The notes beneath the pieces were generated by a model. The model did no database searches. It saw nothing but the letters and a program-made list of their open reading frames with translations, and was not told the DNA's origin. The position numbers and the translations under genes are program-made. Below are positions 57,528-64,000 of a DNA stretch of 64,000 nucleotides, piece after piece. Position 1 is the stretch's first letter; every line of letters starts with the position of its first letter. The DNA comes from Lachnospiraceae bacterium (lineage in GTDB: Bacteria > Bacillota > Clostridia > Lachnospirales > Lachnospiraceae), in the NCBI GenBank assembly GCA_029225065.1, contig JAQXVT010000079.1:1-64000 (forward strand), read 5' to 3'.

Positions 57528-58511
57528 TTAAATTGTAATCAGACCCCGCGTCTCCGGCCCGTCCGCCCGCAGGTCACACTCGCGGAACAGGCGATCTACC
57601 TCGCAAAGGTATTCACTCACTTTTGAAGCCTTGCGGATCTTTTTTCCGATCTTCTCGCTGTGCTCAAAATTCTGGAGCATGTAGCTCCAAAGCTCCTTCA
57701 TGTGGAACACGGCATTGCGGTCTTCGCCGAAAATTTCACGGTACTGAGCGAAGATCTCTGCGTGAAACTCGTAAAGGAGCTTCTTTTCTGATTCCAGATC
57801 GCGACCTGCAGCGCTTTTCAGCCGCCCAATCAGCCCCGTATCCGCAATCACACCTCGTCCAAGCATCACCCGTTCCGTGTCCGGATATGCCGCACGAAAC
57901 GCTTCATAATCCCGCGCCGTCAGCAGATTTCCATTATAACAGACCGGCGCACGACTTGCTTTTTCCAGCTGTGCATAAATGTCAAGATGCGGTTCCCCTT
58001 TGTAGAATTCTTCCCGCGTGCGCGGGTGAATAATCAACTCAGATAACGGATACTGATTGTAGATCTCCAGCAGGCGAAAACCTTCCTCCGGGTCTTTCAT
58101 ACCAATCCTTGTTTTAAGTGAAATCCGTACCTCATTTTCCGAAAATATACGGTCCAGAAATTGATCCAATTCCTCCGGATACGCAAGAAATCCGGCGCCT
58201 TTTTTTCGCGCTGTGACCGTGCCGGACGGACATCCAAGATTCAGATTGACCTCCTGATACCCATATGACTGCAGCTCCTGCACCGCCTCGTGAAACCGGT
58301 CGGCATCGTTTGTCATAATCTGCGGCACCAGATCTTTCACATAATTATTTTCCGGCAGGATATCCCGCAGCTCCTTTTTGCCCAGCGGGTGTTTCTGGTT
58401 CGGCACAATAAACGGCGTAAAATAGCGATCCGCCCCCGGGAAATACTTTTCCAGCGCATTTCGGTAAATGTATCCAGTGACACCCTCAAGCGGGGCAACG
58501 TAAAATTTCAT
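57528..58511 (-). CDS. dus: tRNA-dihydrouridine synthase
   Basis: 327 residues. MKFYVAPLEGVTGYIYRNAL is the FMN barrel start, NLNLGCPSGTVTARKKGAGFLAYPE carries the catalytic Cys, then RISLKTRIGMKDPEEGFRLLEIYN, LIIHPRTREEFYKG and VCYNGNLLTARDYEAF, VMLGRGVIADTGLIGRLK. The C-terminal helical tRNA-binding part is intact. It reduces uridines in the tRNA D-loop using NADPH. ATG after CAGGAG. Confidence 0.92.
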   Translation of the reverse strand: MKFYVAPLEGVTGYIYRNALEKYFPGADRYFTPFIVPNQKHPLGKKELRDILPENNYVKDLVPQIMTNDADRFHEAVQELQSYGYQEVNLNLGCPSGTVTARKKGAGFLAYPEELDQFLDRIFSENEVRISLKTRIGMKDPEEGFRLLEIYNQYPLSELIIHPRTREEFYKGEPHLDIYAQLEKASRAPVCYNGNLLTARDYEAFRAAYPDTERVMLGRGVIADTGLIGRLKSAAGRDLESEKKLLYEFHAEIFAQYREIFGEDRNAVFHMKELWSYMLQNFEHSEKIGKKIRKASKVSEYLCEVDRLFRECDLRADGPETRGLITI

Positions 58512-60821: not shown

Positions 60822-63710
60822 CTATAAGGTCTTCTTTCCCAGCCGCACGTCCTCCATCAGACCGCTCATCTCTTTATCCAGATGGTCAAACAGATAATTT
60901 TTCCCTTCTGCCCTCTTTTCCGTATACTGCTCCCGGATTTCTCTGCGCATCGCCGCGATCTCCTCTTCCAGGTCATGCGCCGACATTCTTCTGCCGCCCT
61001 GGCCTAAAATGATGACCTGCTCCAGTGCATCGGAGGTCGCAACCGTGACATTGTATTTTCTTCCGATTGCATGGACCGTTTTCTCGATGTACTGGTCCGC
61101 TGTCTCCGCTTCCTTCGTGTAGACCACATAAATATTGTGATATTTCTGCACGCTTCCCTGTCCGCCCTCCACGCGGTATGCGTCAAAGACGAGGATGAGG
61201 TTCATTTTTTTGTAACCCTGATAGTTGCTCAGAATGTCCATCAGCTTTGTGCGCGCAGATTCCACATTGACTTTTGCCAGCTCGTTTAATTCCTCCCAGG
61301 AAAAAATGATGTTGTAGCCGTCAACCAGAAGATATTCGTCGCGCACCTCCTGCTTTTTCGCAGGTGATCCCGAAGCCGATTCACTGTAATCGACGCGGCG
61401 GCTCTTTTTCCAGCCGCTTTTTTCCCGTTTGATCGGCCCGTAGGTACGGGTAAAAATTTCTTCCAGCTCGTCGTTTGTGATCGTCAGGTTCGAACGGTCG
61501 TAGCGGCTTGTCGGCCCGGCCGGGACGTCGGTGCGAGGGGACGTCTTACGAACACCGCCTGTTCCTCTCAAACCGGAGCCATCCATTTCAGCATTACTCG
61601 CTACCTGAGCAGAAAGCCGGAATCCTCCTGTCACAGTTTCCGTTTTTTCGGCTCCGTTCCGAAACGATCCATTGCCATCTTCATATCCATTTCCGACCAT
61701 TCTCTGATGATCAGCATCCCTTTTCTCCCTGAGCACTCCGCTCGTATCCAGATGCGCGTACTCCGGCACCAGATCCCAGTCAACCACAAAACCTGCTCCA
61801 TGGGTACAGAAAACAGATCCGGTCGGATTATCCAGGTCACCCTCGGGATCGTAGCCGCGCGCTTCGATCACTTCCTCCGCATTGTGGCACGTCTGATAAC
61901 TGCTGACGCTGCATGTCATCCGCCCTTTTCCCTTTGTGTAGGAAATCAGTTCTGTCTGGTATCCCCGCATCGTCACGACCGGAGCCGTTCCGGTCAGGAC
62001 GGCTGTCTCTCCCTCGATTTCCATCGGTGAAAAGCTTCCGTACATTTTCTGGATATCCGTCATCGCGCGGCCCGCACAGGCCAGCGGAAGCTCCAGCCGA
62101 AACTCATAGACCGGCTCCAGCAGGACATTTTTCGCGCTTCGCAGGCCCTGACGCAACGCACGGTACGTCGCCTGACGGAAATCTCCGCCCTCGGTGTGCT
62201 TCTGATGCGCCCGCCCTGCAATCAGCGTGATCTTCATATCGGTGATTTCCGATCCGGTCAGCACGCCGACGTGCTGCTTTTCCGCCAGATGGGTCAGAAT
62301 CAGTCTCTGCCAGTTGCGGTCCAGCACATCCTCACTGCACGCTGTCTCAAACTGCAGACCACTGCCCGGCTCACCCGGTTCCATCAGAAGGTGTACCTCC
62401 GCGTAATGGCGCAGCGGTTCAAAATGACCGATTCCGATTACCGGCTCTGCGATCGTCTCCTTGTAGACGATATTGCCTGCGCCAAACTCGACCACAATGC
62501 CAAACCGCTCAAAAATCATATGCTTTAACACCTCTGTCTGCACTTCTCCCATCAGCTGCGCATAGATTTCTCCGAGCTGCTCATTCCACGTGATATGCAG
62601 CTCCGGCTCTTCCTCCTCAAGCTGCAAGAGCTTCCGGTATGTCTGGTGTACATCGCAGTCCTCCGGAATCCGAATCTGATACGAAAGCACCGGCTCCAGC
62701 ACCGGAAGATACACGCCGCGTTCCTCACCAAGCCCTTCACCCGCCTTCGTATGATTCAGTCCGGTTACGGCGCATACCATACCGGCCTGTACTTCACTTA
62801 CTGCCTGAAAATTTCCACCGGAACAGATTCGAATCTGATTGACCTTCTCTTCCCACACATCCTCTCCGTCACCGCCGCGCAGCACTGCCTTCACCTTCAG
62901 GCTGCCACCTGTGATCTTCATATGCGTCAGACGATTGCCCTGCTCGTCACGCGAAATCTTGTAGACCCGCGCCGCAAATCCCTCCGGATAACTTTTCTGC
63001 ACGCTGTATACACGCAAGGCATCCAGCAGCTCCTGCACCCCCTGAAGCTTAAGCGCCGAGCCAAAATAGCAGGGGAACACCTTTCGCTGCGCGATCAGGC
63101 GCGCTGCGTCCTCCCGTTCGATCCTGCCATCCTCCAGATAACGCTCCAACAGTGTTTCATCGCAAAGCGCGAGCGCCTCCGCCGTCTCCGGATCTGAAAG
63201 TGGATCGTCCGCCGCCGAAAAATCAACACAGTGCTCGTCCAGCTTTTTCTGCAGCTCCTCAAGCAGCCGTGCCCGGTGGGTCCCCGGCTGATCCATCTTG
63301 TTGATAAAAAGAAACGTCGGAATTTCGTATTTTTTCAGCAGCCGCCACAGTGTCTCCACGTGGCTCTGCACACCATCCGCTCCGCTTATGAGCAGCACGG
63401 CGTAGTCTAATATCTGCAGCGTCCGCTCCATCTCCGCCGAAAAATCTACATGTCCAGGCGTGTCCACCAGTGTCATTTCCATATCCCCAAGCACTACCTC
63501 CGCCTGCTTGGAAAAAATCGTGATGCCGCGTGAGCGCTCCATCGCAAAATTGTCAAGAAACGCATCCTGATGATCCACACGCCCCAGCTTTCGTATTCCG
63601 CCGGTCAGATAAAGAATCGCCTCCGCAAGCGTCGTTTTTCCGGCGTCGACGTGGGCCAGTAGTGCGGTGCAGATGTGCTTTTGTATTTTATCGTTTTCCT
63701 GTGTATTCAT
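60822..63710 (-). CDS. TetM/EF-G-like ribosomal GTPase fused to a Rae1/YacP-type NYN ribonuclease domain
   Basis: 962 residues, ATG after GAAGGGA. Residues 1 to about 660 follow the Tet(M)/Tet(W) plan: G1 AHVDAGKTT (19-27), RGITIFSKQ, DTPGHVDFSAEMERTL, NKMDQPG, domains II-IV, and a domain V ending near RGYQTELISYTKGKGRMTCSV. A Gly/Ser/Arg-rich linker of roughly 80 residues and NDELEEIFTRTYGPIKR follow. From residue 792 there is a NYN domain: YLLVDGYNIIF (D797), LILVFDAYRV (D843), AETADQYIEKT (D872) and VATSDALEQ (D894), closely like B. subtilis Rae1 (YacP), the ribosome-A-site mRNA endonuclease. It need not confer tetracycline resistance. Confidence 0.92.
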   Translation of the reverse strand: MNTQENDKIQKHICTALLAHVDAGKTTLAEAILYLTGGIRKLGRVDHQDAFLDNFAMERSRGITIFSKQAEVVLGDMEMTLVDTPGHVDFSAEMERTLQILDYAVLLISGADGVQSHVETLWRLLKKYEIPTFLFINKMDQPGTHRARLLEELQKKLDEHCVDFSAADDPLSDPETAEALALCDETLLERYLEDGRIEREDAARLIAQRKVFPCYFGSALKLQGVQELLDALRVYSVQKSYPEGFAARVYKISRDEQGNRLTHMKITGGSLKVKAVLRGGDGEDVWEEKVNQIRICSGGNFQAVSEVQAGMVCAVTGLNHTKAGEGLGEERGVYLPVLEPVLSYQIRIPEDCDVHQTYRKLLQLEEEEPELHITWNEQLGEIYAQLMGEVQTEVLKHMIFERFGIVVEFGAGNIVYKETIAEPVIGIGHFEPLRHYAEVHLLMEPGEPGSGLQFETACSEDVLDRNWQRLILTHLAEKQHVGVLTGSEITDMKITLIAGRAHQKHTEGGDFRQATYRALRQGLRSAKNVLLEPVYEFRLELPLACAGRAMTDIQKMYGSFSPMEIEGETAVLTGTAPVVTMRGYQTELISYTKGKGRMTCSVSSYQTCHNAEEVIEARGYDPEGDLDNPTGSVFCTHGAGFVVDWDLVPEYAHLDTSGVLREKRDADHQRMVGNGYEDGNGSFRNGAEKTETVTGGFRLSAQVASNAEMDGSGLRGTGGVRKTSPRTDVPAGPTSRYDRSNLTITNDELEEIFTRTYGPIKREKSGWKKSRRVDYSESASGSPAKKQEVRDEYLLVDGYNIIFSWEELNELAKVNVESARTKLMDILSNYQGYKKMNLILVFDAYRVEGGQGSVQKYHNIYVVYTKEAETADQYIEKTVHAIGRKYNVTVATSDALEQVIILGQGGRRMSAHDLEEEIAAMRREIREQYTEKRAEGKNYLFDHLDKEMSGLMEDVRLGKKTL

Positions 63711-63840
63711 AAATTAATCCCTTCTGTAACGATTTGTATTCAGCCGATCAAGCATACTCATCCATACTCTGTTTCACTGTTTGCCCCGGTTAATTTCACA
63801 AATATCGTTTTCTCTTCATCAAAACATTTCGCCTAGAGCG

Positions 63841-63998
63841 TGTTTGAAAAATGTTTTCTGCAAGATGTGCGTCACAATTTGTGGGAGATTTCGTCTAAGT
63901 GAGGGCGGCGTAGCGGGCTACGTCAACCGAATGAATGCAAAATATACCGCAAAGTATCTCATAAGGCGGAACCCGCTTGCGGGAGGATTCCTTATGAG
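63841..63998. repeat. Long copy of the TGTTTGAAAAAT hairpin repeat
   Basis: It begins TGTTTGAAAAAT (63841-63852), carries an inner GTAGC/GCTAC hairpin, and ends in a nested hairpin: CTCATAAGG (63958-63966) with CCTTATGAG (63990-63998), inside it CCCGC with GCGGG. It matches the layout of 1942-2017. No reading frame is apparent. The remaining 63711-63840 shows no gene; it should hold the promoter of the GTPase-NYN gene. Confidence 0.6.
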
Positions 63999-64000
63999 CC

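Follow-up and report, generated by a model that had tools for sequence, protein, structure and literature searches.

A translational GTPase fused to a Rae1-like nuclease domain looks like a core gene of Lachnospiraceae that took the place of free YacP

The stretch of DNA analysed here, referred to as the window, comprises 64,000 nucleotides of a Lachnospiraceae bacterium (assembly GCA_029225065.1, contig JAQXVT010000079.1, positions 1 to 64,000). Near its right-hand end lies a gene whose product, P0001, joins a translational GTPase to an NYN domain resembling the Rae1 (YacP) nuclease of Bacillus subtilis. The gene is a single intact open frame of 962 amino acids (aa) on the minus strand (63710..60822), with its start ATG at 63710 and a stop codon ending at 60822, and at this locus frame 1 of the plus strand is interrupted by stop codons. 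A first-pass annotation of this DNA had described one 962-residue GTPase–NYN protein here without giving its strand, and had named a frameshift separating the two halves as one finding that would speak against it; Pfam detected both halves within the one open frame. The parts of the gene are as follows.

60822..63710, minus strand: fusion gene, GTPase–NYN, 962 aa (single open frame; Pfam domains in both halves)
63012..63680, minus strand: G domain, residues 11–233 (Pfam GTP_EFTU, E 1.7e-49)
62730..62978, minus strand: domain II, residues 245–327 (Pfam EF-G_D2; AlphaFold2 model)
62481..62696, minus strand: domain III, residues 339–410 (Pfam EFG_III, 25.7 bits, slightly below the cut-off of 27)
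62130..62474, minus strand: domain IV, residues 413–527 (Pfam EFG_IV)
62175..62216, minus strand: loop III of domain IV, residues 499–512, GRAHQKHTEGGDFR (alignment; conservation)
61881..62126, minus strand: domain V, residues 529–610 (Pfam EFG_C)
61746..61859, minus strand: extension of the SVFCxHGAGFxVxW type, residues 618–655 (alignment; conservation)
61353..61679, minus strand: disordered linker, residues 678–786 (predicted local distance difference test, pLDDT, of the model; variable length)
61440..61472, minus strand: conserved short helix within the linker, residues 747–757, ELxxIFxRTYG (model; conservation)
60843..61331, minus strand: NYN_YacP/Rae1-like nuclease domain, residues 794–956 (Pfam; 5mq9 alignment)

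The G domain carries intact G1 (HVDAGKTT), G3 (DTPGH) and G4 (NKMD) motifs, and the AlphaFold2 model of the whole protein contains a five-domain EF-G-like fold, with 3j9y among its fold-search matches. The lists returned by Foldseek and VIA-align for the whole model were filled by EF-G-type and related GTPase chains, and the assignment of the NYN half thus rests on sequence, not on fold. The Pfam profile NYN_YacP matched this half with 178.4 bits against a cut-off of 24.6, and it aligned with the B. subtilis YacP chain 5mq9 over about 150 residues (E 4e-26), bearing out the resemblance to Rae1 that the first-pass annotation had proposed. The four acidic residues reported there as kept, D797, D843, D872 and D894, align with D7, D53, D81 and D104 of 5mq9, which we take to be the catalytic acids of Rae1/YacP. 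The stretch between the two halves (residues 656–791) measured 59–143 aa, with a median of 77, in the 117 fused proteins described below, and the model gave pLDDT values below 50 at residues 678–746 and 755–786. Within the linker helix, E748 was present in 74 of 77 rows and I752 in 75 of 77, and a loose form of the motif was found in 94 of the 117 proteins; its role could lie in docking to the ribosome or to one of the two modules. S632, F634, C635, G638 and W645 of the extension were invariant in 77 rows.

Conservation was assessed in 117 fused proteins, namely P0001, 40 from broader genome draws and 76 from a genome scan; because the scan rows came from the best 80 of 588 relatives, the most similar ones, the counts lean to close relatives. 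The four NYN acids were present in all 117 proteins, and the P-loop, DTPGH and NKxD positions were kept in every row covering them, except for single substitutions at residues 87 and 137. Median identity among the 117 was 0.587 for the GTPase and 0.565 for the NYN domain, and, judged by their residues, both halves look active. Most of the residues that are invariant in 19 free YacP proteins of the class were also kept in the fusion. The distances of the two halves correlated (Spearman 0.61, with none of 499 permutations as high), as expected if both were inherited together. The first-pass annotation had suggested looking for co-occurrence of the domains in homologues, and both were found within one frame in 76 of the best 80 loci (of 588); of the other four, two were cut by contig ends and two had the halves in separate frames. 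The latter two (L294:6096-8652, where the frames overlap, and L274:20-2464) may represent a sequencing error, a broken gene or a real two-gene form. The idea that a sequencing error fused two genes at the present locus was rejected in view of the single frame here and in those 76 relatives.

The distribution of the NYN domain was analysed in a draw of 299 Lachnospiraceae genomes from 298 genera. The domain was present in 264 of them and gave no match in 35. It lay in an open frame of at least 700 aa in 242 genomes, 34 of these long frames containing stop codons inside the profile match that the search had read through, and in shorter frames, some of them contig-cut, in 22. Frames were extracted for five places of this kind from the family and class draws (G282, G306, G338, G381 and G326), and in each the frame itself contained the NYN domain. 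The fusion thus looks like a core gene of the window's family, Lachnospiraceae. The genome from which the window derives has exactly one NYN_YacP match, the fusion itself, in line with the absence of a free YacP for which the first-pass annotation had proposed a check, and no genome among the 299 clearly had the fusion plus a complete free YacP. Two NYN matches were found in six family genomes: those of G130 and G173 look like pieces, that of G154 looks like a duplicate, the second matches of G076 and G278 fell below the cut-off, and a 139-aa NYN piece at a contig end in G039 is the one possible case of fusion and free YacP occurring together. Among 128 genomes of the class that were at least 90% complete, 46 had the domain in a frame of at least 700 aa, 38 had a free protein of 168–213 aa, one was unclear and 43 gave no match. 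In the phylum, 67 of 109 genomes had a match, seven of them above the cut-off in a frame of at least 877 aa and nearly all others in short frames. Named carriers of the fusion include Agathobacter rectalis, Monoglobus pectinilyticus, Butyrivibrio, Anaerovorax, Fusibacter, Intestinimonas and Herbinix.

The free yacP gene of Clostridia mostly occupies a fixed operon position, whereas in the fused family genomes read this position is empty. In the class, yacP lay directly behind rlmB in 15 of 19 genomes, and in the family it lay directly behind mrnC–rlmB in 9 of the 11 free-YacP genomes whose flanks were read, with cysS visible ahead in seven. The slot genes were identified by comparison with those beside yacP in locus L140, and we presume their names to be cysS, mrnC and rlmB, mrnC being also supported by a Pfam match. 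The slot after cysS–mrnC–rlmB lacked yacP in all four fused family genomes read (G000, G152, G102 and G185), suggesting that in the family the nuclease has moved out of its former operon and now forms the C-terminal part of the GTPase. In a fused genome of another family (G316), cysS–mrnC was present, but the stretch read contained no rlmB and no yacP. In the NYN tree, the 11 free YacP proteins of the family formed one clade among the fused ones, suggesting that they arose by splitting of the fusion; this was rejected because 9 of the 11 sit directly behind rlmB, so that most of them represent the old free gene. The free YacP genes of G059 and G217 lie outside the rlmB slot, and in G059 the cysS–mrnC–rlmB slot is empty (L306). 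The fusion thus looks like the replacement of free Rae1/YacP in the family.

The first-pass annotation had called the GTPase TetM/EF-G-like, and, although the five-domain fold is common to all of these proteins, the likeness to TetM did not extend to the domain IV loops or to the profile score. The best NCBIfam profile for the GTPase was tet_protect, but the ribosomal protection equivalog NF012153 gave 425.5 bits, below its cut-off of 775, and the EF-G equivalog TIGR00484 gave 293.1 bits, below its cut-off of 659.4. The three loops at the tip of domain IV are described as displacing the drug in Tet proteins (PMC4342817). In the alignment, loop III contained SPVSTP in 7 of 10 Tet-like rows, including annotated tet(Q), tet(S) and tet(36)-like genes, and read SYHxVDSSE(M/L)AF in the EF-G rows; in the fusion group it read AHxKHTEGGDFRQ (AHQKHTEGGD in P0001). 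Loop I of the fusion group, GHFEPLRHYAEV, is likewise unlike the Tet-like and EF-G rows. An otr(A)-like row also lacked the YYSPVSTP loop, which is thus not universal among protection proteins. The SVFC-type C-terminal extension was seen in none of the Tet-like or EF-G rows compared and was common to most unfused relatives of the GTPase. H502 aligns with the tip histidine of EF-G (H573 of Thermus thermophilus) and was kept in 114 of the 117 fused proteins. The GTPase shared 26–31% identity with the plasmid proteins Tet(O), Tet(S) and Tet(Q) and with a Tet(36)-like protein. In a quick tree of 78 rows, in which four of the ten Tet-like rows are annotated genes, the fused GTPases formed one group (support 76) within a clade shared with unfused relatives of about 650 aa (support 100), and this clade stood apart from the Tet-like and EF-G rows, although the forks joining them were weak (support 52). 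By these tests of profile, loops and tree, the GTPase is not a typical tetracycline-protection protein. Other translational GTPases are encoded in the genome as well: two frames, of 709 and 699 aa, we read as EF-G and EF-G2, and there are several shorter ones.

The GTPase scored above 700 bits in only 2 of the 38 class genomes with free YacP, and it was found in none of the 15 own-family genomes without YacP that were tested. Among the 14 family genomes with short YacP frames, an unfused GTPase reached E 1e-60 or better in nine, that of G068 being Tet-like at 32%, and two look like contig-cut fusions. Eight of these unfused GTPases fell in the clade of the fused group but outside the group itself, mostly on long branches, and that of G068 fell with the Tet-like rows; the idea that they are the other half of a split fusion was set aside and plays no part in the argument here. 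A genome with free YacP (G401) carries two unfused copies of the GTPase family, of 647 and 655 aa (L162 and L171). An unfused relative from Ligilactobacillus salivarius, WP_283475094 (L175:2998-4917), is 48% identical to the GTPase half; its gene lies on a 214-kb plasmid near rpsN (S14) and is annotated as TetM/TetW/TetO/TetS family, and its loop III, ASNVHTVGGD, departs from those of the other unfused rows.

Around the fusion gene, conserved operon partners were sought and rejected, none being found across 116 fused loci. About 125 bases upstream of the gene lies a 217-bp stretch (63835–64000, continuing to 64051 on the contig) with inverted ends, as judged by eye; its own genome holds 52 places that match it wholly or in part, and it looks like a small mobile repeat. 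A promoter-like site with 12 of 12 matches occurs at about 64082–64110, just beyond the window, and the repeat lies between this site and the gene. A conserved 5′ leader or attenuator was rejected because the distance between site and gene is here filled by the inserted repeat. Sites with at least 11 of 12 matches occurred in 8 of 105 other loci, against 0.8 expected from shuffles, and six of these eight lay within 33–87 bases of the ATG. Downstream of the fusion on the same strand, beyond a kinase-like gene, the gene at 57528–58511 (like L098:6544-7479) reads like what we presume to be a tRNA-dihydrouridine synthase; a similar gene lay within 400 bases downstream in 3 of the 116 fused loci.

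Contrary to the first-pass annotation, which knew of no described example, Tet proteins with a YacP-like NYN domain have been reported from ten clostridial species, with a suggested role in resistance (Atkinson et al., 2015, PMC4342817). Architecture and bacterial group are the same as here, and P0001 very probably belongs to these fusions. The 2015 paper predates Rae1 (2017). The remark on these fusions speaks of resistance only; whether they take the place of free YacP, whether they are core to a family and what the tips of domain IV look like are not among its subjects. In the literature searched, which did not extend to the Rae1 papers Leroy 2017 and Condon 2018, no other paper joining such a GTPase to YacP was found. 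A fusion of this kind is thus already described, yet uncharacterised as far as the literature searched shows; new here are that it is core in the family, that it replaces free Rae1 there and that, in the profile, loop and tree comparisons made, it does not come out as a typical Tet protein. The NYN half is homologous to Rae1/YacP of B. subtilis (5mq8, 5mq9) and shares its four acids, but Rae1 is a free protein with a solved chain of 181 residues, whereas here the domain forms the C-terminus of a GTPase. With the ribosomal protection proteins TetM, TetO, TetS and TetQ the fusion shares the five-domain EF-G-like fold, differing in domain IV tips, unreached profile cut-off and separate branch; with EF-G and EF-G2 it shares fold, GTPase motifs and tip histidine, although it falls below the EF-G profile cut-off and the genome encodes the presumed EF-G and EF-G2 besides. 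The unfused relatives of about 650 aa belong to the same clade and have no NYN domain; in most of them the tips of domain IV and the SVFC-type extension are like those of the fused proteins.

Rae1 has been described as cutting mRNA endonucleolytically in the ribosomal A site (PMC6613710), and has been proposed to enter stalled ribosomes (PMC10100781). Considering the above results, the fusion may serve Lachnospiraceae and many other Clostridia as a core housekeeping factor, a Rae1 with a built-in ribosome-entry GTPase, to which we give slightly less than an even chance. EF-G and Tet proteins place domain IV in the ribosomal A site. With its five-domain EF-G/TetM fold and intact motifs, the GTPase in its GTP form would bind the factor site of the ribosome, and domain IV would enter, test or clear the A site. 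After GTP hydrolysis the GTPase would swing out, and the nuclease on its disordered linker would then take its place in the A site and, by analogy with Rae1, cut the mRNA of a paused ribosome, either within the A site or adjacent to it, leaving the ribosome for standard rescue. More specifically, and only tentatively, since our doubts outweigh our confidence, the protein may act as a GTP-gated A-site nuclease, in which the GTPase clears or inspects the A site and hands over to the tethered Rae1, hydrolysis times mRNA cleavage on paused ribosomes, and the protein generally stands in for free Rae1 in Lachnospiraceae and many other Clostridia. Ribosome binding, cleavage site, order of events and trigger are what we infer here; the observations themselves are one protein, intact motifs, an empty operon slot, near-exclusive fusion in the family and correlated halves. 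The hand-over from GTPase to nuclease is the most economical reading because it explains a stable family-wide fusion in which both halves are intact and the free nuclease is gone.

Several observations weigh against such a coupled factor. The A site is the presumed place of both EF-G/TetM domain IV and Rae1, and the two should not fit there together, a point that the first-pass annotation did not take into account when it proposed that the GTPase delivers the nuclease; the two modules would thus have to act sequentially, on different ribosomes or elsewhere on the mRNA. In the fusion, residues 803, 817, 908, 913 and 952 depart from the fixed state that they have in the free YacP proteins of the class or are less strictly kept, and the same holds for residue 803 in the free YacP of the family. 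No conserved neighbourhood was found, the commonest neighbour family occurring in 15 of 116 fused loci, and the literature search returned no report of ribosome binding or RNA cleavage for a fused protein. An unfused relative of the GTPase was present in 3 of the 20 class genomes without YacP that were tested and in 8 of the 14 family genomes with short YacP frames, and 3 of these 14 had free YacP and no such GTPase at E 1e-60 (two being less than 90% complete); unfused relatives of about 650 aa thus exist, some without YacP, and the GTPase can be useful by itself. The principal rival is accordingly plain tethering, in which the halves work independently, the GTPase in an EF-G-like job such as moving or removing a stuck tRNA and Rae1 as in Bacillus, and are fused for co-expression and proximity to the ribosome without GTP-coupled delivery. 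The disordered linker of variable length (59–143 aa), the occurrence of unfused relatives both without YacP and beside free YacP, and the kept tip histidine H502, which hints at translocase-like activity, are consistent with this, but the long frame in 242 of 264 YacP-bearing family genomes, the correlated evolution of the halves and the conserved linker helix suggest more than co-expression, and we consider plain tethering a serious yet rather unlikely explanation.

Another reading, put forward by Atkinson et al. (2015), is that the protein protects ribosomes in the manner of tetracycline-resistance proteins and adds an RNase step to this. It would agree with the Tet protein fold, the best profile tet_protect, the public annotation of the Agathobacter rectalis fusion as a TetM/TetW/TetO/TetS family protein, and the otr(A)-like row that also lacks the YYSPVSTP loop. 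It is nevertheless improbable in view of the score of 425.5 against a cut-off of 775, the absence of the SPVSTP of 7 of 10 Tet-like rows, the tree position apart from the ten Tet-like rows (the deepest forks being weak) and the presence in 242 of 299 family genomes, unlike the patchy spread of acquired resistance. A recently acquired resistance gene was set aside on this distribution and on the domain IV loops, and the same distribution fits the proposal of the first-pass annotation that the protein acts in rescue or quality control and not in drug resistance. There is similarly little chance that the NYN half matures or degrades rRNA or tRNA instead of mRNA, with the GTPase as a checkpoint of ribosome assembly or ribosome state: NYN domains have been proposed to mature rRNA and tRNA (PMC4342817), and the old yacP neighbours mrnC and rlmB are described as acting in 23S maturation and 23S methylation, respectively (PMC8266666, PMC6613710), but Rae1, its closest solved relative, has been described as cleaving mRNA in the A site (PMC6613710). 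That one half is vestigial, a dead GTPase or a dead nuclease used only for binding, is very improbable, as the G motifs and NYN acids are kept in essentially all 117 proteins even at median identities of 0.587 (GTPase) and 0.565 (NYN).

If a GTP-gated nuclease is indeed encoded here, it would to our knowledge be the first demonstrated case of a translational GTPase that is also a nuclease. The A. rectalis annotation is in any case a warning that an apparent core translation factor can carry a public tetracycline-resistance label. Lachnospiraceae are among the main gut bacteria, and in about four in five of the 299 family genomes the nuclease domain occurs fused to the GTPase. Should the fusion indeed cleave the mRNA of paused ribosomes, it would be this family's main version of a little-understood quality-control step and would offer a clue to how Rae1 reaches the A site.

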